From Collybia mongolica (lineage: Eukaryota; Basidiomycota; Agaricomycetes; Agaricales; Clitocybaceae), in the NCBI GenBank assembly GCA_013420905.1, contig JAAXNY010000016.1, positions 744,001 through 808,000 on the forward strand: DNA of 64,000 nt. The letters are read 5' to 3'. Positions 7,745 to 21,395 of this stretch are shown piece by piece. Made by a program: the position numbers and the translations under genes. How positions within the stretch are numbered: position 1 is the stretch's first letter; the number at the start of each line of letters is the position of its first letter. Under the pieces are notes generated by a model that was not told where the DNA came from, ran no database searches, and was given only the letters and a program-made list of their open reading frames with translations.

Positions 7745-8156
7745 ATGGGCAAAGACAACCCCCCCAGCTGATCTTGACAATTGGCGGAACGTGCTTCTAA
7801 ACCACCAGATATCCGCAACTACCTTTGCAGGTCCTCCTCCTCTGCTCCATCCAGGAGCACCACTCCTCAGAGGCCCCTGGGCCTACCTACTATTGCACAA
7901 TGGGTCTTCTTTTGACCACCCATGCCTGCACCCACATTGGAGGAGGATTCCTCCACTCCAATGGACACCGTGGGAGACAATGACACCGTCACATTGTCAT
8001 CTGCCAAAGGCAAAGCACCAGCTCCACCTCCCCAGGACCGAGAGGAAACCTTTGAGGGGGTGAAGAAGGACTCATTCCAGGAGAGCTTCAATGACCTCGC
8101 CGATGTCTTTCTCCCAACTGGTTCAAGAGAATTGGCAGAGCTTGATGTCAAGACGG
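7745..8156 (+). pseudogene. LINE ORF1, 5' part
   Basis: The frame starts at ATG 7745 (MGKDNPPS) and reads through two TGA codons, QLAERASKPPDIRNYL, a Pro/Ser-rich stretch and another TGA before PMPAPTLEED. It then runs open to the gypsy insertion point at 8156 (LAELDVKT). It continues in frame at 19776 when the gypsy element and one copy of its 4-bp target duplication are taken out. The product would be the nucleic-acid-binding ORF1 protein; this part is low-complexity. Confidence 0.7.
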
Positions 8157-9075
8157 TGACAGTACCGAGTTCACTGGGAGTGTGTTAAGTCGTCGGACTT
8201 GTAACTCCGAGCGGGCCTCTAGTTGTAAAATAATAGAGGAATTCCTATGCAGAAAGAGCGAAGATCAACGTAGCAAAGGCAATGGGAATATACCGGAGAA
8301 TGGTGTCAGACGGCAGGTGTGAAGGGGGTCGGAGATCGTCGGAGTCGGTGGTCACGACTTCGGAGGCGCGTCGGTCGGCGACGCAGTACGACTGTACGGT
8401 GAACAGGACTCGGCGGTGCGATGTCCGAGCGTTCGGCGTAACAGGTTCGGTGCGGGATGCGACTTCGGTGCAAAGTTTGGACGCGTCTTATAAGAGAGCG
8501 AGAGCTCCGTAGAGAGAGAGAGAGAGAGAGAGAAGGTAGTTGATATCCGTCAAGTAAGTAAAATACAGAGGTATTTATACTAAAAGTTGTACCCTAGGCC
8601 GGAGTCTGTGTCTACAGATGTGACCAAGGAAACATGAAGGAGGAGATAGATAAATTAGATACAGGGTCGGTGTGGGAATGCGTCGTTATGTTTCATACTA
8701 CAAGGCGGACTCTATACTTCGGTGTCTGTGCCCACCGGGCACGTCAGTGTGGCCATACCAACAATACGTACATGTTGAAGGAACATGAAGACGTGACTTC
8801 GGAGTCGGTGGTCGGCGGCGCGATCGACGAAGGGATATCCGGCGGCGGCGGCGGCGACGGAGCCACGGCGGGAATCGTTGAGGAAAGCAGTCGGCATGAT
8901 GTTCGGTGAGAGTCAATACTTCGGCGGCAGCGAACTCGTGATATGGGACCGGCAGTGGTTATTCCGTATGATCTCGGCGGCGGCGCATGTTTACTCGGTA
9001 GTGGGGATTTCCTAGGTCATGGTGCAGTTAAGGAAAAGACCATTTGACACGCATGGAGCGAGGCCATGCTTGTCA
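8157..9075 (-). repeat. Left LTR (3' LTR of the minus-strand gypsy element), 919 bp
   Basis: It begins TGACAGTACC and ends GCTTGTCA. Relative to the right LTR I count four transitions, a GA microsatellite two bases longer (around 8513-8535), and absence of the 77-bp duplication. The sequence just right of it, read on the minus strand, ends GAGGGAGA, a plausible polypurine tract. Confidence 0.95.
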
Positions 9076-9840
9076 TCTCCCTCGGACTGAAAATTGACCG
9101 TCCACGGGTAATCGGGGTTCGGCGGAAGAAATGGCGGCGTCGTCCCGAAGGCAATCAGCGGTAATTTATGAAGCATCACGGAAATGTAGATCTCGCCTGG
9201 AAGGTGATCTTCATGAGTGTACCCGCTTGTCGGAGATCACGTAAAATAGCTGGGTGGAGGCAGCGCCGTCGTCCTAAAGGTGATTGTAGGTGTTGGGAAA
9301 TGATGGATCGGTGACCATAGGAGTCGATGGCGGGACCGTCGAGAGGGCGGAAGCATTCGGTGATTGGATAGACAGATTGAAAGAGACAAGTCCATGATAA
9401 ATAAAATCGGGATGAATCAAAGAAAAACTAAAAAAAATCAAAATACATAAAATATGTGAGATGAGGATTGGAGATTGAGCGGAGCTTGGTAAAGAAAGGA
9501 CGACAGTAATGAAATAGGTGGCTGATAAAATGAAACAGAGGATTCTATGTAGGGGAAACGGAGGAGGCGTCAGTGTTGTTCGAAAGGTAGTCGACATCGG
9601 CGGGAGGGAGTCAAGGCGGCGGCGGCGGCACAGGTTACTTGATAAACGGCGGCGGCGTTTTGAGAGACCGGCGGCGTGGATCGACTGGTAAGATTTTCGT
9701 TTATTTGCCGGATCAGGGGTGTGATCGATCCCACGTGCGCGAAGCACGGGGACTCTTGGAAACGTGGCTAGTGGGGACTCGACGCGTGATCGCGTGTTCG
9801 ACTTTGCCATTTTTTACCCTTTAGTCTTTACTACTTCAAC
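9076..9840 (+). promoter_or_regulatory. Probable promoter/5' region of the antisense accessory gene
   Basis: This 765-bp non-repeated stretch lies between the left LTR and the ATG of the accessory gene. It includes an AT-rich block at about 9398-9450 in otherwise GC-rich DNA, and runs of GGC/CGG triplets at 9600-9680. Minus-strand ORFs here are arginine- and leucine-rich shadows. Promoter function is inferred from position only. Confidence 0.4.
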
Positions 9841-11984
9841 ATGTCGACCCCCGCTCCGGACTTCAATGGTGACCTCGCCTATGTGCAAGGGATGCTCGAC
9901 GCGAGCGGATTCGGTCTCGATGACGCAGTTGTGGAAGAGACGGAGAACGGGATCTTGGCGTTTTCGAAGGCAAAACGGCTGGTGAAGGCCAAGGTGAGTG
10001 GAGATTTTATTTCTATTATTTGTTTCCTAGTGACCGAGGGAGCTTTGTAGGAGAAGATTGACCATCTTACGCGCGCGAAAGTGCTAACGGACGTCGACCT
10101 GAAGGTGCAAATTGGGAAGTTCCACTCATGGATCCGGACGCATATCACCGAAACCTGGCGCATTCTGGGTGTCCCATACGCCGTGTGGTTGGATTCAAAT
10201 CCGGTTGACGATGGGCCGGTGACTACTGAGGATGCCTTGGCACCGGAGGAGATAGAAATGAGGGATGGAAGTCCGAAGAAAAGTTCACGTCCGGCGGAGG
10301 GTAGGGAAGATGCGATGGAGGTGACGGAAGAATGGGAGATGACCAGTTTGGCGGTAGCACGCCCGAAGACGACGCCGGCGGCGGTACGAGACGAAGATGC
10401 CGAGGACGAACGCGAAGTTCGGGCCGCCGTCAGAGCGGGGAAACAGAAGGCGGTGGAGGGTGAAGCTCGAGAAAGAAGTGGTACATTTGGAGGGTCCGAA
10501 TCGTCGGGACGGGACATGGTCAGAATGCCGGCGTCTCAGCGTCCCCAACCGCGTCCAATTGCGATGATGTCGACTAGCAGGATTGGAAGGAGCATTGGTG
10601 GGGCTTCGACGGCGGTGGTTAGAAAAGAAGTTGTGGTTACTGGACTGGAAGGGAAGGATACCGGTTCGCAGTCTACGATGGCCCGTCGCCCGGCTGCGCG
10701 CCGTGGCATCGTTAGCAAACCCACGATCGATACCAGCGAGGACGAGGAACCGACGACTCCTTCCAAGGCGCAACGGATCGAAAGGAAGCGAACGGCTACG
10801 TCTCCACCGGGTTCCCTCAAGAAAACCAAGCAAGCGCGGACGGAGTCGCGATTGCAGCTAGAGGTGTCGGTGCCTCCGCGCTCCGAGGCATTTCTGAGTG
10901 GAAGGAGTGCTCCCACCGTGGAACCGGAGGCGATCGACATACCGGATGACGATGATGCGGAAGGGGAAATGGAGATAGATGAGGACGAGGCTGCGGGCTC
11001 TTCGGCGGTGAAAGGTGGAAAGGCGAGGAAGATCCCCCGGGTGGCGAGGATGATTAGTAATGACCAACGGCGCATCGAGGAGGCGAAAGCCGTCGAATAC
11101 TTCTACGAGGATCAGGAGTCAGTGCCGAAAGCGCACCTTGATTCTTTTGTTTTGTACGTTTTGAACACTCGGGTCCCGAGTGACAAGGTGTGTGATAAAG
11201 CGTCCCTATTAAAGGAAGATATTGACTTTGCTTATTGTAGATGTACCCAGACAGATGCGCTAGTTGCCGCATGTCAAAGGTTTTGATGTGCGGCGGCCCA
11301 CCGGGAGGTGTCTGTTACATGTGCAAGAAACGCAAACAGAGGTGCTCGGCGTTCGTAGCGGAACAAGACGATCCTGAGGTGAAAGGCAAGGTAAAAGGGA
11401 AGGGGAAGACGGTGCCGAAGGCAACTTTGAAGTCCCAAGGTACGAGCCGGTCGGTGATGGTGGATGACGACGGGTTGGAGGTTATTCGGTCAAAGGTGAA
11501 GCCGGCCAGAAAGACTGCGGCGCCGGTGGAAGGGAAACTGGAAGCTGTGACACCGGCGATAGAAGTCGTGGACCCGGAGGCATCGGCGGATGACAAGGAG
11601 AGCGACGAGTTGGAGGATGATGAGGACGGCGTCGGATCAACAGACAAGGTCGCGGTTAAGATTGAAAGAGCTAAGACTACACGGAGGACGGCCCGTCAGA
11701 GGACGTCTGTTGCCGAACCCTTGTGGACGCCTGTTCAGTCAGCTCAAAGCCAGGGGTTAGGACTGCACGGGCGCCCGGTCGCAAGCCATTTGGTCTCGAC
11801 ATTGGATTTGGACAATAGGATCGGAAGCGCGGAACGCCAGCTTTCCCGGATCCTGGGTCGGATTGAAGAGATCGAATGCGACATGGACGTTGAGTATACG
11901 ATGCTGGCGGCCTTGCATGATGCGAAAGCCGCTTTGGAGAGGAAGATCGAGGAGAGGAATAGGGTCGCGTCTGGGAGTCGATAG
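9841..11984 (+). CDS. Retrotransposon-borne accessory gene: Zn2Cys6-like, coiled-coil protein, 677 aa
   Basis: Exons 9841-9993, 10051-11187 and 11241-11984 join in phase 0 across two short introns (57 and 53 nt, GTGAGT/TAG and GTGTGT/TAG) to give 677 codons. Residues 1-120 look globular (FHSWIRTHITETWRILGVPY). Residues 120-360 are Ser/Pro/acidic and probably disordered, with Lys/Arg-rich patches. Residues 436-465 hold six cysteines spaced C-x2-C-x7-C-x7-C-x2-C-x6-C followed by basic residues, like the binuclear zinc cluster of fungal transcription factors. The last 60 residues form a likely coiled coil. It faces opposite to gag-pol and converges on the integrase. A DNA-binding, chromatin or transcription role is inference; no standard retrotransposon protein matches. 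Confidence 0.85.
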
Positions 11985-12269
11985 GCGGCGGCGGTATCGT
12001 TCGGCGGACATGTCTTTAGAATATACATATTTAGATTGTCACGCCTTTGAAATATATATATATTAGTCTTCTTGGTAAATCAGTGTGAATAAGATAGAGG
12101 GAGATAATTGTCCCTCGGACTTTGATACAAAGTCCGAGCGACGGCGGTGACCTATGATGTATGGTGCCGGCGGTATGTACGGCGGCGGCGCAATTGGGTT
12201 TTTCGAAGGATTTTTGATAGATGGTTCGTAGATGACGAACTTGGTGGGCGATGTCGAGGTGTTTAGTGA

Positions 12270-13459
12270 TCATTGTTCCTCCTGTTCATCTTCGTCGTCG
12301 AAGTCAGTACCGAGGAATTCTTCATCGGGTTTGTCCAACGTTTCGCGGCGCCGAAGTTCGGCGCGAGAGATGTCGATTTTCTCGAAAAGGTCATTGGTGG
12401 GGATAGTGGTTCGGGCATAATACGGGATGACACGGAAAGCGCCGATCGGCGATGCTAGCACCGTACCATCCAAGTCTGCTACAATATAAGCCCCGCCGCG
12501 ATTGCGGGATACGACAACGTAGGGACCGAGGTACCGGGGTCGCATTTTTCGGTCTAGAGATTTTTCGATTTTGGTGTTCCGGATGAGTACGAGTGCTTTT
12601 TAATCTTTGTAGCGTGTGCCTCCAAGAATCGGTGCATGTGTTGTTGGCGGGCACAGTGAACTCGGTGCCGGAGGTCTTCGATGTCTTCTTTTCGGCATTG
12701 CAACTGGCGCGCGCGTTGGGTGAGGAGATCTTCGGAGGTGAGCAATGCGTCAGGAGGGGGAAGGAGGTAGGTCGCCTTGTTGATGTCGAAGGGGAGTATG
12801 GGATGGATACCGTGAGCAGCGAAATAGGGACTGTACCCCAATGTCCGAGTCGGCGTGATGCATTCGGCCCAGAGCGCCGAATAGAATCCTCGGTGCCATT
12901 TCTTCTCGTCTCCGTCGGCGATCTTGTAGAGGACTTGTCGGAGGTCCCAGTGTTTGCGTTCCACCAGGCCGTTGGCTCGGGCGTTGTACCCGGATACCGG
13001 TATGTGCTTGATCTTGTACCGCTCGGTGAGGTACTTTGCGGCTTTGACGAAAGGGCCGCCATTGTCGGTGACCATTTCGGAGAGGGCTCCCCACCTGCAA
13101 ATGATTTCTTGGAAAATAAAGTCAGCAATTGTCTCATGGTTCTCGGAACGTAACATGCGGGCTTCGGGATAAGAAGAAAGAGAACATCGGGCATGTACCA
13201 CGTATCGGAAGCCGCCTGCCCTTGGTAGCATCATCGTGTCGATGTAGACTTTGCGGAACAGGGGGGCAGGCATAGCGACTACCGGCGGTATATTAATTTG
13301 TCGCGTCTGTCGGGTTTGGCAGATGTGGCAAGAATCCACAAACCACTTGACATCGGCTTGGAGAGACGGCCACCAGAAACGGACGACGAGGTGTGAACGT
13401 GTCGGATAGAGACCCCGATGACCAACGAAGTCGTGAGCTTCGATGATCAACGGTAGCCG
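12270..13459 (-). CDS. Gypsy integrase with SH3-like C-terminus, interrupted by a frameshift
   Basis: The frame continues that of the RT ORF beyond a TGA at 13460-13462. An HHCC zinc-binding domain (HDFVGH...CHICQ) is followed by the catalytic core with Asp in VYIDTM, Asp in VTDNGGPF and Glu in GLVERKHW. The last D and E are about 34 residues apart, close to the usual 35. The first frame ends at 12554. The C-terminal part (RNTKIEKSLDRK, RPRYLGPYVVV, a GPY/F-type module) resumes in another frame to 12270. The shift maps to an A-run on the coding strand (T-run 12597-12601), consistent with loss of one A. The tail is acidic (FDDEDEQEEQ). Confidence 0.9.
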
Positions 13460-16042
13460 TCAGAGCGGCGGTATGACAACTTTATGAAATCCGTGAAAGT
13501 TCTTACGCCATAATACTTTACCCTTCATAAAGAACTGTTGAGCGTATCGGAGGAGCGTCTTGAAGTTCTGTTCGGTGATGCCATCGGGCCGCTTGAGGTC
13601 TCGGAGGAGGGCTACGACAGTGTTGAGTCTGAGGTCTGCTTTGTCTTGTTGAGCGTTTCGGGGAATTGCTACTTCAGTGTCGGGCGGCGTCGGCGGCGGA
13701 GTGAAGTCGGGGGTCGTGTCGATGGAGTCGGTCATGATTGTTCGGTGAGGGAGTGGTTGGTGTTCGGCGAGTCGATAGTTGAAGGTGTAGGCTTCGGAGT
13801 CGTGCGTGGAGAGAGTGAGAAGTGACATACTAACGCGTTGACCGCGTGAAACCGACAGGGGATTGATCATATGCATGAAACCGTATGCTTGGTCGATCCA
13901 GTCTTCGAAATCATCTTCTTCTTCCGGAGGGTCATCGAGCTGCGCGGGCCGACGAGAGAGTCCGTCGGGGCCATGTGTCGCGCCGGGGACGTGGACGAGT
14001 TTGAAGTCGAAGAGGAGGATTCCGGCAATCCACCGGTTGATCGTCGCGTTCAGTTGGATGTCGGGATTGTTCAACATGCCTTTGATGTACTTGGCATCGA
14101 CTTCGACAGTCAGGTTCTTGACGCCGATGATGTATAGGCGTGTGGCACGGAGACTCCGAAAGAGTCCGTAGAGTTCGAGCTTCGGTTGGGAGTATCGGGA
14201 TTCGCGTTCGTTGAGAAGGATGGAGCCGAAGCGACTCGGGTATCGTTTGGTATCGGAGTCGGGGAGGAGTTGGGAAAGAACATAGCCGATTGCGATATAT
14301 GAAGTGTCGACAGAGAGGAAAACGGTTCGGTCGCTGTGGTAGTCGATGGCTTTGACCGCCGGAGAGGTAATGATTGCTCGTTTGAGTTCCTCTTGAGCGG
14401 CGATCTCTGTCGGGCCGAATTCGAAGTCGACATTCTTTCGCGTAAGCCGAGTGAGCGGTTGGGCTATCATCGAAAAGTTCTTGATGAAGATGCGCATGAG
14501 TCCAGCGGTGCCTAGGAATGCTCGGACTTCGGAGAGGTTCTTGCAGGGACCCCAATCGCGGATCTTGGCTACTTTACTGTCGGCGGCGCGGCGCCCGTCG
14601 TAACAACACATGTGGCCGACGATGAGGGCCTCGGGCACGCATAGGAATGCCTTCGGTCCGGACCAGGTACATCCGACGTACCGGATCCGTTGGACAATTT
14701 GGTTGAGGTTCTGGAAGTGTTCCCAGATGAAGCGGCGAATGCCCGGATTGGCGGCGATGGTTTCGTAAGTGCCGTCTGCTTGTTCGTACTGAGTGAGTGG
14801 TCCCTTGACTGGTGCGTCATCAAGGAAGGGAATGGTGACGTCGGGGATCTCATCTTGGAGGACATATGTGACGTCGGCGTGGAAGATCGGGACGGAGTTC
14901 GACCATCCCATCGGAACGCAGGTGAGGCGGAGAGTGCCGAGAGGTGTTTGGAATGTGGTGAGGTCTCGGGATTCTAGCGCGAGTGCACGTTCGTCATAAC
15001 CGACGAATAGATCAAGGAGCCCGTAACATGCGCGTCCGCCGCATGATTCGGCGAGTTGTTCGGTGTAGGGGGGAACGCCGGAGTCCCGAATGGTGACGGT
15101 GTTCAGTGGTTGTAGATCGTGGACTAGGCGGAGCTTGCCAGCAGCTTTCTTCAACACGGTGAACCATCGGGATCTGTATGACGAGTTCGATTGTTCATAG
15201 ACGCCGGCAGCGATCTTTTCACGGACAACGTCCAGGACTTGGTCGTAGATCCCCGGTGGGATCGGCATGTTTTTGAGTACCCATGGAACATGTTCCATGA
15301 TCGGCATTTGGACAGGAGGGAAGAAGTCCGATCGGAATGAACCTTTTTGTTTTTCGGTCCAGGCGAATCCTTGTTCGTGTTTCATCATGAAGTTGTGCAT
15401 GAATCGGCGTTCCTCGTCGGTGAGGAAGCCGGGTGGATGGTTTTCTTCAATGATGTCATAGGCGGCGGCGTCGTACCGACCGGTCGGAGTGAAGTCGGAG
15501 GTGTGTGGGGAAAGAGTGGGGAGTTCGGCGAGTGGGTCGCCGGTGATGTTTCGGACTATTCGGAACTCTTCGGGCAGAGTTGCACCTACGGGTTTGATTT
15601 TATGAGCCACGGGCTTGTACTTCTTCTTGCCCACCAGTGTAGGTCTTTCGGCGTTCGGTGGTTTCGGCGAATCCGGCAATTCGGTCGGTGAGGTTCGGTG
15701 ATAAAATGAGTCGCTCGGTCGCGCTTTTGGTTCGGACGTGAAATAGGGTATAAATGAATCGATTGTTGAACTAGTAGATGTAGAAGTAACGAATGGAGGA
15801 GTAGGGGTATCTATAGATGTCGGCGGAGGTGGGTCCGCCGACTCGGTGTCTACTCGGGAAGCGGGTCGGAGGGAGATGGCATAACCGGGAATGGACTGGG
15901 TATCGTATATTTCGGGGACGGCCTTTATATCTATATGCTCGGCCAGTTTGAAGGCCGATATGACGAGTGGGAAATCTCCTTGAGTGTTTGGGTTACTCAA
16001 ATCCTCGATATTCAAAAACTTTCTTGGTAAGTGTGGTCGCAA
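13460..16042 (-). CDS. Gypsy pol: reverse transcriptase and RNase H, 860 aa
   Basis: The first 170 residues are Pro/Thr/Ser-rich linker. The reverse transcriptase follows with GVYEQSNSSYRSRWF, KLRLVHDLQPLN, LLDLFVGYDE, FQTPLGTLRL and the catalytic FLDDAPVKGP (FLDD in place of YxDD, about residue 407). RNase H shows the acidic residues in LSVDTSYIAIG, KLELYGLF and VEVDAKYIKGML, then the HVPGATHGPDGLSR end motif. The ORF overlaps the gag-protease ORF by 31 nt in the -1 frame, so expression by -1 frameshifting or from a separate ATG is possible. It ends in TGA directly before the integrase in the same frame. Confidence 0.93.
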   Translation of the reverse strand: MRPHLPRKFLNIEDLSNPNTQGDFPLVISAFKLAEHIDIKAVPEIYDTQSIPGYAISLRPASRVDTESADPPPPTSIDTPTPPFVTSTSTSSTIDSFIPYFTSEPKARPSDSFYHRTSPTELPDSPKPPNAERPTLVGKKKYKPVAHKIKPVGATLPEEFRIVRNITGDPLAELPTLSPHTSDFTPTGRYDAAAYDIIEENHPPGFLTDEERRFMHNFMMKHEQGFAWTEKQKGSFRSDFFPPVQMPIMEHVPWVLKNMPIPPGIYDQVLDVVREKIAAGVYEQSNSSYRSRWFTVLKKAAGKLRLVHDLQPLNTVTIRDSGVPPYTEQLAESCGGRACYGLLDLFVGYDERALALESRDLTTFQTPLGTLRLTCVPMGWSNSVPIFHADVTYVLQDEIPDVTIPFLDDAPVKGPLTQYEQADGTYETIAANPGIRRFIWEHFQNLNQIVQRIRYVGCTWSGPKAFLCVPEALIVGHMCCYDGRRAADSKVAKIRDWGPCKNLSEVRAFLGTAGLMRIFIKNFSMIAQPLTRLTRKNVDFEFGPTEIAAQEELKRAIITSPAVKAIDYHSDRTVFLSVDTSYIAIGYVLSQLLPDSDTKRYPSRFGSILLNERESRYSQPKLELYGLFRSLRATRLYIIGVKNLTVEVDAKYIKGMLNNPDIQLNATINRWIAGILLFDFKLVHVPGATHGPDGLSRRPAQLDDPPEEEDDFEDWIDQAYGFMHMINPLSVSRGQRVSMSLLTLSTHDSEAYTFNYRLAEHQPLPHRTIMTDSIDTTPDFTPPPTPPDTEVAIPRNAQQDKADLRLNTVVALLRDLKRPDGITEQNFKTLLRYAQQFFMKGKVLWRKNFHGFHKVVIPPL

Positions 16043-18645
16043 TCATTGTTGTGGATGGAATCGGGCAGCGGCAGCTTGTACCGAGGAGTGCCGCGTCGGA
16101 CCGTTGGCAATGCAACGACTTTCTTGGAGTTTGGGTCGTGTATGGTGATGGTTTGGTCGCCGTTCCGATGGTTGTTGACTTGGGAGGCGGTGAGAACGTC
16201 GAAGGGCCTACCGAGGAGGATGTCGTATGCAGGATTGTGGATCACATGAGCCTGGGGGTAGAGTTTGATGCCGTGGACTTTGACCATGAGGTTCTCGACG
16301 ATACCCTTGGTGGTATCGGTAGTTCGGTTCACCGATGTAAGGGAGATCTTGTACATTGGGTTAAGACTTCGGTTGAGTGTCAACCAGACGGCTTCGGAGA
16401 TGGCGACGATTTCGGAGCCGGGATCTAAAATGGATTCGATCTCATGGAGACCTTCGATGATCGGGGTGATGGCTCGGAGCGCGTGCGATTCCGTGGCAAC
16501 GACCAGGTGTTTTCCGATTTGTGGGGCTTCCAGGGACTGCTGGAAGACCTGACGGGTGTCGGTGGTGACGTAGGTGGCTGCGGTAGTGATGTTATTGGGG
16601 ACTTTGCGCGTTGTGGTTGCCTCTTTCATGTGTTTGCGCACTTCCGGCGAGGTGGCTAGGATCTCGCAGGCACTGACCGTGACTTGTGCATCGAGAATTC
16701 GATCGTACAACTTGGTGCCGATGGCGCGGTCTTTGACCGGAGCGGCGTACCTGAAGTTCGGCTCTTCACGCGGCTTAGGGTCGTCACGGTTGTAAGTGGC
16801 TTTAGGTGCGGCGGCCTTGTCGGCAGCAGGCTTCGGTACCGATGGTGCGACGGCGGCAGACAGTTGAGTTGCCGAATGTGATGCCAAGGGTCGAGAGGCA
16901 GAGGTGTTGTTGGAACCCGATCCCGACGGGGTTTCCTTTGCTTTGCCTTTGTTGCGTTGGGTCAACTCGACGCCGTCAAACTTGGCCTTGACTCTTTGGC
17001 GGAGTTCGAACAGCTGGTGTTCGGCGGCCTCTATTTCGGCGATGGCTTCGTCGCGGGCGTCGTCGTCAAGACGCTCTTGCATATTGACCTCGGCGGTCTG
17101 CTCGTTGATGCTGTTTTCGACGGCGGGAGAGTATATTTCGAGCATCGCGGTGGTGCGCTGTCTTTGGGTTGCAGGTTGTGCCCGATCGATGGACATCTGC
17201 ATGTTTTCGCCGTTTTGGCCGCACGGGATCTGTGAACCGTCGGCCATTACGAGTCGGTTGCCTTCCCGTTTGATACGGTTCTCGTTGATGTACCGCATGG
17301 CGATGTCGCAGTTTCGGACGCCGTGCCCGTTGACACCGCAGAAGTTGCAGATGTACGGGCCGCGATTCTGCGTCGGCGCCGACGCGCGTTGCTGCTGTAG
17401 TAGCGGCTGTAACTGGTTCGCGAAGGTGGCGGCGATGGTGTTCGCTATGGTCATGACGTCTTCGGTTTTGATCCCTGGTTCGGCTTTGATTCCCGGGGCT
17501 TGGGGAAGAGGTTGATAGATTTCCGGGGCTGGTGCGGCGGCGGCGGCCGGTGCCGGAGGCTGATGTTGCCCGTATTGGTATGGCTGTTGGTACGTGCCGG
17601 GCTGCTGTGGATACGACGGTGATAGCGTGCCGAACGGCGGTACGATGGTCCCTGTGCCGATATAGGGATGATGATTGATCGGAGCGGGCTGTGTCTGCGG
17701 TGCCGGTGCTGCATAGGATGCCGAAAATGAATAAGGGTTCTGCATGTCGATGATGGCTGACCCTTGCATGATAATGACGCCGGTCTTGAAGAGATCTTCT
17801 AGCTTGTAGGGCTCGTCTATGTGCTGCGTCGGGTTCTGGATCTGCATGCGGAATACTATCTTCGATGCAATGTCGGGTGGGAGAGCTCGGAGGAAGTTCA
17901 TTGATACTTCCCGCTTCCCGATCCGGTCTTTGCCTTGTAGGTATTCGACGATGGTGGAGTATTTTCGGAAGAAGTCTCCGAATTCGGCGAGTGTCTGAAT
18001 ACCGTTCCTCTGGGTTGCTCCGACGAGCTGATCGAGGTTGTTGATCCGAAAACGTTCTTCCAAGATTGCTCCAGGATACAGGGTCGTGATTGCGTCTTTG
18101 AACTGGGCATAGGTCTTATTGACGTCGGCGAACTCGGGCCGCCTCTGCCAGAAGTGCACGGTCTCGACGTCTAAGTACTTTACGATGTCCCTTTTGCATT
18201 CGGGATCGGGAAGTTTGACGAGGTCGGCGAAGTGTTCGAAGTCGGTGAAGAACCTCTGAAGTGAGGTGGCCTGGCCATCAAACTTCGGCGCCGTGTTGTG
18301 TGTTCGGGCCGGCATGTGGTAGACGGTCGGGCCCATTGCAAGAGCAGGGGATGGTGTTTCGGACATGATGAGTGGAGATAGGTGGTTCGGATCTAGTCGG
18401 GGTGTACTGGTTACAGTAAGGGATGATAGAGTGGATAGGGTTGATGGAGTGGAGAAATTAGAGCGTGTGGGAGTGGACGGGGATGTCAGAGCGGTGAATG
18501 ATTCGTCACTGGAGAAGTCGGAGGCAATGGAAGGGTCAGGCGTGGTGAGGGAACGGAGGGGCGGTAACGAAAACTCAATATCCGAATAGATTGTACTATC
18601 GCGTTGCCGGACAACGGTGTTCGGAGGCGTTACCGACGTACGCAA
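16012..18645 (-). CDS. Gypsy gag-protease polyprotein, 877 aa
   Basis: Residues 1-120 are Ser/Thr-rich. A gag capsid-like helical region (FDGQATSLQRFFTDFEHF to LEDLFKTGVII) follows, then a Gln/Pro/Ala-rich linker, and a CCHC zinc knuckle CNFCGVNGHGVRNC near residue 431. A retropepsin module near residue 740 has active site ILDPGSEIVAIS (DPG in place of DSG/DTG) and a downstream ILLGRPFDVL motif. The ATG at 18645 leaves about 135 nt of leader to the right LTR. The ORF is unbroken, unlike integrase. Gag packages RNA; the protease matures the polyproteins. Confidence 0.93.
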   Translation of the reverse strand: MRTSVTPPNTVVRQRDSTIYSDIEFSLPPLRSLTTPDPSIASDFSSDESFTALTSPSTPTRSNFSTPSTLSTLSSLTVTSTPRLDPNHLSPLIMSETPSPALAMGPTVYHMPARTHNTAPKFDGQATSLQRFFTDFEHFADLVKLPDPECKRDIVKYLDVETVHFWQRRPEFADVNKTYAQFKDAITTLYPGAILEERFRINNLDQLVGATQRNGIQTLAEFGDFFRKYSTIVEYLQGKDRIGKREVSMNFLRALPPDIASKIVFRMQIQNPTQHIDEPYKLEDLFKTGVIIMQGSAIIDMQNPYSFSASYAAPAPQTQPAPINHHPYIGTGTIVPPFGTLSPSYPQQPGTYQQPYQYGQHQPPAPAAAAAPAPEIYQPLPQAPGIKAEPGIKTEDVMTIANTIAATFANQLQPLLQQQRASAPTQNRGPYICNFCGVNGHGVRNCDIAMRYINENRIKREGNRLVMADGSQIPCGQNGENMQMSIDRAQPATQRQRTTAMLEIYSPAVENSINEQTAEVNMQERLDDDARDEAIAEIEAAEHQLFELRQRVKAKFDGVELTQRNKGKAKETPSGSGSNNTSASRPLASHSATQLSAAVAPSVPKPAADKAAAPKATYNRDDPKPREEPNFRYAAPVKDRAIGTKLYDRILDAQVTVSACEILATSPEVRKHMKEATTTRKVPNNITTAATYVTTDTRQVFQQSLEAPQIGKHLVVATESHALRAITPIIEGLHEIESILDPGSEIVAISEAVWLTLNRSLNPMYKISLTSVNRTTDTTKGIVENLMVKVHGIKLYPQAHVIHNPAYDILLGRPFDVLTASQVNNHRNGDQTITIHDPNSKKVVALPTVRRGTPRYKLPLPDSIHNNDCDHTYQESF

Positions 18646-18760
18646 TTCAAAGGATACCCGAGATATCTGCAGGTTGATAGGGTCGTTAACTGCGCGGTTA
18701 ACCTCCTCGCGGAGATTCTGTGCTGCAACACGGGATCTTCTGCCTTCAATGATTGGAAAT

Positions 18761-18778
18761 CCCTCGCGGTGGGCTCCA
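18761..18778 (-). promoter_or_regulatory. Candidate primer-binding site
   Basis: Read on the minus strand, three bases past the 5' (right) LTR the sequence is TGGAGCCCACCGCGAGGG. It could pair with a tRNA 3' end finishing in CCA. Position and the TGG start fit a primer-binding site; I cannot name the tRNA. Confidence 0.55.
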
Positions 18779-18781
18779 AAA

Positions 18782-19775
18782 TGACAGTACCAAGTTCACT
18801 GGGAGTGTGTTAAGTCGTCGGACTTGTAACTCCGAGCGGGCCTCTAGTTGTAAAATAATAGAGGAATTCCTATGCAGAAAGAGCAAAGATCAACGTAGCA
18901 AAGGCAATGGGAATATACCGGAGAATGGTGTCAGACGGCAGGTGTGAAGGGGGTCGGAGATCGTCGGAGTCGGTGGTCACGACTTCGGAGGCGCGTCGGT
19001 CGGCGACGCAGTACGACTGTACGGTGAACAGGACTCGGCGGTGCGATGTCCGAGCGTTCGGCGTAACAGGTTCGGTGCGGGATGCGACTTCGGTGCAAAG
19101 TTTGGACGCGTCTTATAAGAGAGCGAGAGCTCCGTAGAGAGAGAGAGAGAGAGAGAAGGTAGTTGATATCCGTCAAGTAAGTAAAATACAGAGGTATTTA
19201 TACTAAAAGTTGTACCCTAGGCCGGAGTCTGTGTCTACAGATGTGACCAAGGAAACATGAAGGAGGAGATAGATAAATTAGATACAGGGTCGGTGTGGGA
19301 ATGCGTCGTTATGTTTCATACTACAAGGCGGACTCTATACTTCGGTGTCTGTGCCTACCAGGCACGTCGGTGTGGGAATGCGTCGTTATGTTTCATACTA
19401 CAAGGCGGACTCTATACTTCGGTGTCTGTGCCCACCGGGCACGTCAGTGTGGCCATACCAACAATACGTACATGTTGAAGGAACATGAAGACGTGACTTC
19501 GGAGTCGGTGGTCGGCGGCGCGATCGACGAAGGGATATCCGGCGGCGGCGGCGGCGACGGAGCCACGGCGGGAATCGTTGAGGAAAGCAGTCGGCATGAT
19601 GTTCGGTGAGAGTCAATACTTCGGCAGCAGCGAACTCGTGATATGGGACCGGCAGTGGTTATTCCGTATGATCTCGGCGGCGGCGCATGTTTACTCGGTA
19701 GTGGGGATTTCCTAGGTCATGGTGCAGTTAAGGAAAAGACCGTTTGACACGCATGGAGCGAGGCCATGCTTGTCA
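18782..19775 (-). repeat. Right LTR (5' LTR of the minus-strand gypsy element), 994 bp
   Basis: It matches the left LTR except for four transitions, a GA tract two bases shorter and one 77-bp tandem duplication. It begins TGACAGTACC and ends GCTTGTCA. For the minus-strand element this is the promoter-bearing LTR. Confidence 0.95.
19291..19444. repeat. 77-bp tandem duplication private to one LTR
   Basis: The unit starting CGGTGTGGGAATGCG at 19291 repeats at 19368. The left LTR has only one unit. The copies differ slightly (CCTACCAGGCACGTCGG against CCCACCGGGCACGTCAG), so the array has begun to diverge. Confidence 0.9.
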
Positions 19776-21395
19776 ATGGCCACATCATTGCTCCACAACA
19801 CCACAGAGCTTATGAAACTCTGGACTGAAAAGGGATACCATGTCCCTCCCCACCTCACTGACACCTTTGCCACTGAGCTCCTACAGGACATTTACTTGGC
19901 CTCTGAAATCGGTCTCATCTGGCACATTGCCAATGGGACTTCTTAAGTTGCCGCCCTACAGCAGGTCATTGACAGCCTTTGGAGCCAGCTCCCCCCTGAC
20001 ACTCCTCCCCCTCCTAAATATGGTCCATCTGGGTCAGGGAAACAGCCCCCCCATTTGTCCAATGCTACCTCCCACCCTGCTGGCCTCTGCAGGCCCTGGA
20101 AGAAGCTCATTCCGGCTTGGTCATCTAGACAGCCTCCCCCCCCCCTGCCCAGCCCAACCCTGGCCTCGTTTGCCTCTACCACAGCCACCACTGCCCCTCT
20201 CCCCCAACCTCCCCCTTCTAAGCAGAGGAAAGGCACCTCTGCCATGGCTGAGGGACTTGTCCAGATGGCCAAGTCCTTCCCCTCGGCTCCCAATGCATCC
20301 ATCATCCAGGTGCAACAGATAGTTGTGGGCGGGGCTGCTGTTTCTCACACAAACACTGAACAGGCTTGCACCAATGTAAAGTGTTCTACCACCCATGGCT
20401 CCTCTCGGAAGGAAGTCGTGGTCTTCTGCTCCCTGTCGGTATACTGGGACAATGCTCCCGTTATTCTGACAGTCAACAGTATTCTTGGTTCTAATCAACA
20501 AACTGTCTGTGCCATTGTGGAATCACGAAACCATCTTGGAGGTTTGTCCCTCATCATGGATTCTGTGCCTTCCAAAGACAACCTCCAGGTCCTATACCGG
20601 TTCTTCAATGCCAAGGCAAAGGAGGCTCGGGGGGCCAAGGCAGAGACACAGGTCAAGGTCAGGTCTTCCAAGACCTTCCTCCACATCCCCAACTTCCCCT
20701 TCTTCAGCACCACCATCATGTATGATGATGCCAGAAAGCCCATTCCCATCACTCCACTGGAGGTCAAGGCCATTCTTGAAACCTGCAAATGGAAGGGTGC
20801 AATCCATCTGTACCAGGGGGCACTCCCCCACATGGTCAGAAACTCTAAGGCGTTGGACTCGTGTACCGTGTTCTTTGACATCTACAACTCCCATGGAGGT
20901 ACCCACCTCCACAGCCTCTGGAACAAGAGCTTCATGCTCAGGTCCCAGTCTCTTACCATCCTGCCTGCTGATAAGCGGACAGGCATACCTATCTGCACAA
21001 AGTGCTGGAGGTTTGGCCACCACAAGGAGGTTTGCCCCTTCAGAGCCCAGTTGTGCTCTTACTGCAGTGGGCCCCATGATGCCCACAACCACCATGACTT
21101 AGTGGCATGCTGCAAGGCCGCCCCCAAGGCTACCCCACCAAGGCTCGCCATGCCAGCAGGCCACAAGTGCCCCCATGCTTCCTGCTGCATCAACTGTGGC
21201 CTCACCCATGAGTCTGACAATAGAAGGTGTTCCTTTTGGAAACACTGCTATGATGCCAAATGGCTAGTGGCCAAGTACACTGCCCAGAAGGTAGACAACA
21301 AGCTTTTACACTTTGTGCCCTCCACTAACACTCCATTTCTCACTGTTACAGGAGACAGGCTCCAAGGACACAGGGAGGATACTCGAGTGATTTGA
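19776..21395 (+). pseudogene. LINE ORF1, 3' part with CCHC zinc knuckles
   Basis: This continues the ORF1 frame from 8156: MATSLLHNTTELMKLW, a TAA stop (GTS*VAALQ), Pro-rich linker, then an unbroken stretch from 20055 to 21395. It ends with zinc knuckles: CTKCWRFGHHKEVC, CSYCSGPHDAHNHH and CINCGLTHESDNRRC. Such ORF1 proteins bind the element RNA. The central part (KVRSSKTFLHIPNFPF, LEVKAILE) looks like an ORF1 core. The stop and frame problems in the 5' part make it non-functional. Confidence 0.85.

Follow-up and report, generated by a model that had tools for sequence, protein, structure and literature searches.

A Ty3/gypsy retrotransposon at positions 8157-19775 of the 64,000-nucleotide stretch of Collybia mongolica DNA analyzed here (the window) carries, between its integrase region and its 3' long terminal repeat (LTR), a three-exon gene on the plus strand, antisense to the gag-pol genes on the minus strand. 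We searched one genome assembly (46.0 Mb, 26 contigs) and compared the window element and its close copies (family A) with three related families, B, C, and D. By sequence, the comparison shows the gene in several diverged families, in the same interval and orientation and with conserved introns and cysteine spacing, and it looks like a standing component of the element. The preliminary description of this DNA had regarded the gene as maintained, and its recurrence at the same place in copies and in diverged families, with introns and cysteine spacing conserved, supports that view. We put at about one in two the probability that this is a Ty3/gypsy lineage with a standing antisense accessory gene between integrase and 3' LTR whose product is a predicted nuclear regulator of the element. 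The features of the gene in the window are as follows.

9841..9993, plus strand: exon 1, with the ATG at 9841 (exon joining and translation)
9994..10050, plus strand: intron 1, 57 nucleotides (nt), GT-AG, phase 0 (in family B at an identical alignment position and likewise in phase 0)
10051..11187, plus strand: exon 2, a conserved N-terminal block followed by a long variable charged part (translation and A-B alignment)
11188..11240, plus strand: intron 2, 53 nt, GT-AG, phase 0, immediately 5' of the six-cysteine cluster (translation, copies, and A-B alignment)
11241..11984, plus strand: exon 3, 247 amino acids (aa), stop TAG (open reading frame [ORF] and exon joining)
11256..11345, plus strand: six-cysteine cluster C-x2-C-x7-C-x7-C-x2-C-x6-C (motif scan with shuffles)
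11808..11954, plus strand: C-terminal heptad-repeat helix, residues 620-668 (heptad periodicity against shuffles)

Joining the three exons gives a protein of 677 aa with no internal stop, and translation confirmed the antisense gene that had been described before, with its predicted splicing and its six-cysteine cluster, both introns being GT-AG and in phase 0. The longest stop-free frame in the interval 9076-12269 spans 411 codons, a length that none of 500 dinucleotide shuffles reached (maximum, 376). A frame of 247 codons, the length of exon 3, was reached by 68 of 500 such shuffles, and the exon-3 frame by itself is within chance expectation. The six-cysteine spacing, a pattern defined after the sequences had been inspected, has a single occurrence in the interval, and none of 300 shuffles contained it. 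A C-terminal coiled coil had also been proposed, and residues 620-668, chosen as the best-scoring segment, have a heptad periodicity unmatched in 2,000 residue shuffles (0/2000); the signal is weaker in family B (118/2000). Basic clusters are present in the protein, and 765 nt separate the 3' LTR from its start codon. A Pfam search with the 677-aa protein gave no match, a PDB sequence search with exon 3 returned three matches (E value of 1.8 or worse), and scans of viral contigs with the antisense exon 3, the A reverse transcriptase (RT)-RNase H region, and the B and C integrase regions found no relatives. Low-complexity cysteine-rich matches at window positions 2754 and 2760 were set aside.

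The pol search scored 53 of 414 candidates, and the numbers of places per family are lower bounds. Seven pol places are listed for family A, and the antisense gene stands at the same place in six of them, as it does in families B and C, which answers in the affirmative a question that the preliminary description had raised. Four of the six gene copies are unbroken, one is split by an insert, and one has a stop; put another way, five are contiguous and one (C6) is divided by an insert of about 6.2 kb. Compared with the window, copies C12-, C5-, and C5+ have no gap and no stop and keep the start, the stop, and all four splice dinucleotides; C6 keeps frame, start, stop, and splice sites apart from its insert; and C12+ contains a single TGA and gaps that total 15 bases. 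The GT and AG of intron 1 are retained in all five other A copies compared. A genome search with the 677-aa protein yielded 18 matches, 16 in A copies, one at a gypsy-like locus (L035), and one at a decayed locus whose context is unclear (L036), with no intact homologous host gene among them.

Families B (at least 7 pol places, 73-76% amino-acid identity to A pol) and C (at least 39 pol places, 55-56%) both have an antisense six-cysteine frame downstream of integrase, which contains CEGCRGSNLKVCVGAKGENRCHGCAFKRKPC in B (two copies read) and CTMCATRGDIECTFNGWGKPCVECATAKKGKC in C (one copy read). By coordinate pairing, the B gene lies 1592-1599 nt downstream of pol at 7/7 listed places. The C gene, in a pairing that used 43 of 110 six-cysteine places, was found at 34 of the 39 listed pol places, 32 times at 4361-4382 nt and twice at shorter distances (2513 and 2956 nt). 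Three of the five misses (C21:92, C16:1380, and C18:3696) are places where the gene would run past the contig end, and the other two (C4:179397 and C23:115299) are real. Among the 110 C six-cysteine matches in the genome, 107 have no internal stop over at most 73 codons. In the B and C copies that were examined, LTRs identical over 1004 and 846 nt, respectively, flank the gene, the left LTR of the C copy having been retrieved in part only; the gene-bearing families are shown, on this reading of their sequences, to be recently mobile.

Gene models made by eye give a B protein of 506 aa and, for C, an eight-exon gene that encodes 520 aa and whose GT-AG introns measure 47-65 nt. The C intron that precedes the cluster lies 4-5 residues upstream of the first cysteine, likewise in A and B. 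In 40 fetched C copies (of 110, spanning the identity range), a strict motif check found the intron upstream of the cluster in just 26 and the downstream one in just 34, so older C copies lose splice sites; three of the 40 are missing one cysteine. A second antisense gene stands between integrase and the six-cysteine gene of C (L039:1956-3203, minus strand; C6:2276894-2278141); it has basic clusters and a long C-terminal part, and its last exon has 112 genome matches, some of them fragments. A diverged gene also occurs in the old family D (C9:2063401), where the gypsy integrase to which it is antisense has decayed. Integrase identity to A is 80% in B, 59% in D, and 43% in C.

The antisense proteins of A and B are, by sequence comparison, homologous in three blocks. 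Composition-corrected one-to-one BLAST gave E values of 5.6e-8 (A residues 4-101) and 2.8e-7 (A residues 416-663), which replace an earlier value of 7e-13 obtained without composition correction, and the N-terminal, cysteine, and C-terminal blocks were each matched by 0/1000 shuffles. In the A-B alignment, the two introns of each gene share their columns and are in phase 0. The proportions of nonsynonymous (pN) and synonymous (pS) differences between the two genes are 0.53 and 0.76, and because pS is this high, silent sites are taken as saturated. The D protein is related to that of A (phmmer, 7e-14 one-to-one; E value of 2e-9 in the A genome search) and has no detectable relation to that of B.

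Selection among the A copies was tested on distinct changes in the five other copies, against a neutral spectrum taken from the noncoding parts of the element with CpG included. The antisense gene has 94 nonsynonymous and 64 synonymous changes and one stop, for a pooled omega of 0.74 (p 0.037), so that the ratio below 1 about which the preliminary description asked was obtained, at a marginal level. Under the same model, the controls gave 0.52 for gag (p 1e-5), 0.57 for RT-RNase H (p 2e-4), and 0.67 for the integrase frame (p 0.08). Among the 40 fetched C copies, differences are mainly of the CpG type, the pattern expected from neutral decay. In the noncoding parts of A (8157-9840, 11985-12260, and the introns), CpG positions differ at 113 of 1605 sites versus 17 of 3330 for other C or G positions, an excess that would be expected if repeats are CpG methylated in this fungus.

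Several observations weigh against a standing gene with a conserved product. One A copy, C16:20088, has no antisense gene, the stretch corresponding to about 9289-12052 being absent; in its stead this copy carries a 344-aa transposase frame (Pfam DDE_3 and HTH_Tnp_Tc3_2), and the absence looks like a secondary loss. With its cysteines masked, the A-B cysteine block is matched by 6/1000 shuffles (it beats 994). Genome searches with the A protein and with B exon 3 each missed the other's family at an E value of 0.001, and A and C could not be aligned beyond the cluster (E value of 0.017); the homology of the C gene therefore rests on place, orientation, intron, and spacing. The family D gene is without the third cysteine. 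Finally, selection within A is marginal, with no single copy significant and C6 at 1.09, and therefore it is the between-family comparison that carries the case for a maintained gene. The transposase frame of C16:20088 is Tc1-like (L040:1660-2691, minus strand), and a near-identical frame at L036:6337-7368 (plus strand) lies near a decayed antisense remnant.

The product is most likely an element-encoded nuclear regulator, by analogy with plant antisense ORFs or the HBZ protein of human T-cell leukemia virus (HTLV). A promoter would lie inside the 765 nt between the 3' LTR and the start codon, and the antisense RNA would be spliced. The basic clusters would bring the protein into the nucleus, the six cysteines would bind metal, and the C-terminal helix would mediate dimerization. 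The protein may then act on DNA or chromatin and regulate the element, as proposed for the plant antisense ORFs; HTLV HBZ is known to act in this way. The packaged RNA would be the gag-pol strand, in which the introns are reversed and presumably unrecognizable, to be copied rather than removed; a spliced gene would survive retrotransposition because it is antisense to the packaged strand.

The chief rivals of a transcriptional regulator are a role in the particle or in export or import and a role at the RNA level. The long charged variable middle of the protein, its helix, and its small basic cluster could bind RNA, and CERV of Cer1 is a precedent for an export factor (PMC10309623), so that the product could be an accessory factor for particle assembly, RNA export, or import of the integration complex. 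The arrangement of the gene as a separate antisense unit speaks against this role without being decisive, and we consider it a possible, if minor, alternative. Convergent transcription could instead tune or silence the element through double-stranded RNA, with the reading frame secondary; the layout is convergent, and portions of PMC7264820 discuss regulation by antisense RNA in plant elements. This is unlikely when frame, introns, cysteines, and N- and C-terminal blocks are conserved between A and B despite saturated silent sites.

The two remaining explanations deny the gene a lasting role. A decaying, functionless passenger, retained as the elements are young, would fit recent copies in which omega is close to 1 (0.74, p 0.037) and the predominance of CpG-type changes among C copies. 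It is hard to square with cross-family homology, introns, and cysteine spacing that outlast the saturation of silent sites, and the gag, RT-RNase H, and integrase controls stand at 0.52, 0.57, and 0.67 on the same test; we regard it as quite improbable. Least probable is transduction, in which a single element copy would have picked up a host gene as an isolated event. Gene capture by retroelements is discussed in part of PMC7264820, and the protein is without a Pfam match, but the gene is in six of seven listed A copies and at the same place in B and C, and the matches outside the 16 in A copies fall in two old repeat loci and in no intact host gene of this genome. On sequence grounds, a recent capture appears already contradicted; the shared place in copies and related families therefore disfavors a one-off event. 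The preliminary description had held that absence of the gene elsewhere, or relatives among host genes, would mark such a capture, whereas other copies and families B and C hold the gene.

Membership of the cluster in the fungal Zn2Cys6 family, to which it had earlier been likened, was not supported. In that family, which follows C-x2-C-x6-C...C-x2-C-x6-C, the first loop carries the basic residues. The Gal4-type domain (PF00172) and the clusters described here are alike in their six cysteines, two C-x2-C-x6/7-C halves, and a basic loop. They differ in that the A, B, and C clusters have a first loop of x7 and the basic loop in the second half, the cluster lies in the middle of the protein, and the PF00172 profile has no match up to an E value of 10 to the A, B, C, or D pieces. 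Genome-wide, the profile matched at 20 places, and the antisense genes of A, B, C, and D are not among them. We dropped the label because the profile misses these genes and the spacing and basic loop differ.

The remainder of the element is that of a Ty3/gypsy retrotransposon, with paired LTRs inside a 4-bp target duplication with one mismatch (ACGG/ATGG) and with integrase after RT-RNase H, the Integrase_H2C2 match falling in the adjoining frame, as listed here.

8153..8156, no strand: target-site duplication, left copy, ACGG (flank comparison; empty site in a paralogous repeat)
8157..9075, minus strand: 3' LTR, 919 nt (LTR pair comparison)
9076..9083, minus strand: purine-rich tract adjoining the 3' LTR, a putative polypurine tract by position (read from sequence)
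12270..13459, minus strand: integrase region, in the window copy as two frames, 12554-13459 and 12270-12599 (ORFs; Pfam Integrase_H2C2)
13460..16042, minus strand: RT-RNase H frame (ORF; Pfam RT_RNaseH; PDB matches including Ty3)
16012..18795, minus strand: gag-protease frame, stop to stop (ORF; aspartyl protease matches under the curated cutoff)
18761..18778, minus strand: primer-binding-site-like stretch adjoining the 5' LTR (read from sequence)
18782..19775, minus strand: 5' LTR, 994 nt, with an internal duplication (LTR pair comparison)
19776..19779, no strand: target-site duplication, right copy, ATGG (flank comparison)

LTRs, gag and protease, RT-RNase H, and integrase are placed as in the preliminary description, with the LTR bounds corrected to 8157-9075 and 18782-19775 and the integrase of the window copy found to be split over two frames. 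The LTR pair is 98.8% identical over 596 nt and 99.5% over 410 nt, and the internal duplication of the 5' LTR (18782-19775) measures about 75-85 nt. The host site is another repeat, of which a paralogous copy (L116) is empty and uninterrupted, reading ACAG versus ACGG-element-ATGG in the window. Beside the element, in the repeat that hosts the insertion, lies a frame of 482 codons with Cys/His-rich stretches (window 19947-21395); we take it to resemble ORF1 of a long interspersed nuclear element, and Pfam gave it no match. An Rfam scan of the window found nothing.

Insertion sites of family A (loci L044-L071 and the window) share a 4-bp target of the form NCGN, with CG central on at least one side, in 17 of 17 cases, for which the probability by chance is about 2e-23 at the CpG frequency of the window with sites taken as independent. 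Ten of 16 two-sided target pairs are identical, and in five of the six that do not match, the difference is a CpG-type change at the two central bases. The B copy conforms to NCGN as well, with ACGC at each end, and so does the C copy on its left side, with ACGG. Such a strict CpG target would be unusual for a gypsy integrase. It is conceivable, and in our view highly doubtful, that the spliced antisense gene of this lineage encodes a zinc-cluster regulator that recognizes CpG/CGG DNA, governs transcription from the LTR, and directs integration to CpG; if so, 17/17 A sites and the B and C examples at NCGN would follow. CGG is enriched in the LTRs of A (0/300 shuffles), marginally in C (12/300), and not in B (247/300), and since B is not enriched, we did not use a CGG box in the LTRs as support.

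HBZ of HTLV is a spliced antisense gene that starts from the 3' LTR and encodes a bZIP regulator. Compared by description only, the gene described here is unlike it in encoding a six-cysteine protein, in a fungal element, where HBZ has its 3' LTR start; the likeness is that of an antisense gene in an LTR element, the HTLV-1 product being nuclear and important in the life cycle according to a passage of PMC11963269. The closest counterparts are antisense additional ORFs between pol and the 3' LTR of plant gypsy elements, described in sections of PMC11963269 and PMC7264820. These plant aORF-3R genes (Grande gene23, RIRE2, and Retand TRP28) share with the fungal gene the place between pol and 3' LTR, the antisense orientation, and presence in most copies, according to the same sections of PMC11963269 and PMC7264820, which also report a suspected nuclear or DNA-binding role; for the fungal counterpart, such a role is one that we infer. 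For Grande gene23, a portion of PMC7264820 describes an upstream promoter and a nuclear product. The fungal gene differs in kingdom, in protein, in its conserved introns, and in its six-cysteine cluster; the main texts of PMC11963269 and PMC7264820 do not contain the word "intron," and TRP28 (PF04195) has no Pfam match to the 677-aa protein and none above chance to the B and C pieces. Fungal Ty3/gypsy elements are alike in their LTRs, gag, protease, RT-RNase H, and integrase, and unlike in that an extra antisense gene is present here. The main text of a 2011 survey (PMC3248453) contains neither "antisense" nor "accessory," and in the open-licence literature, a partial sample, we found no fungal, spliced, six-cysteine antisense gypsy gene. 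An antisense accessory ORF at this place is thus already known from plants, and the fungal form differs from it in protein, introns, and host.

An intron-bearing accessory gene should persist in a retroelement solely on the strand that is not packaged, a route that this lineage appears to take, its introns being kept in many copies over deep divergence: two in A and B and seven in the C model. Such genes may be called host transcription factor-like genes in annotations. Beside the plant antisense ORFs and HTLV HBZ, the gene would add one more case of a candidate regulator encoded antisense in an LTR element, apparently evolved independently, and in a kingdom open to experimental tests.

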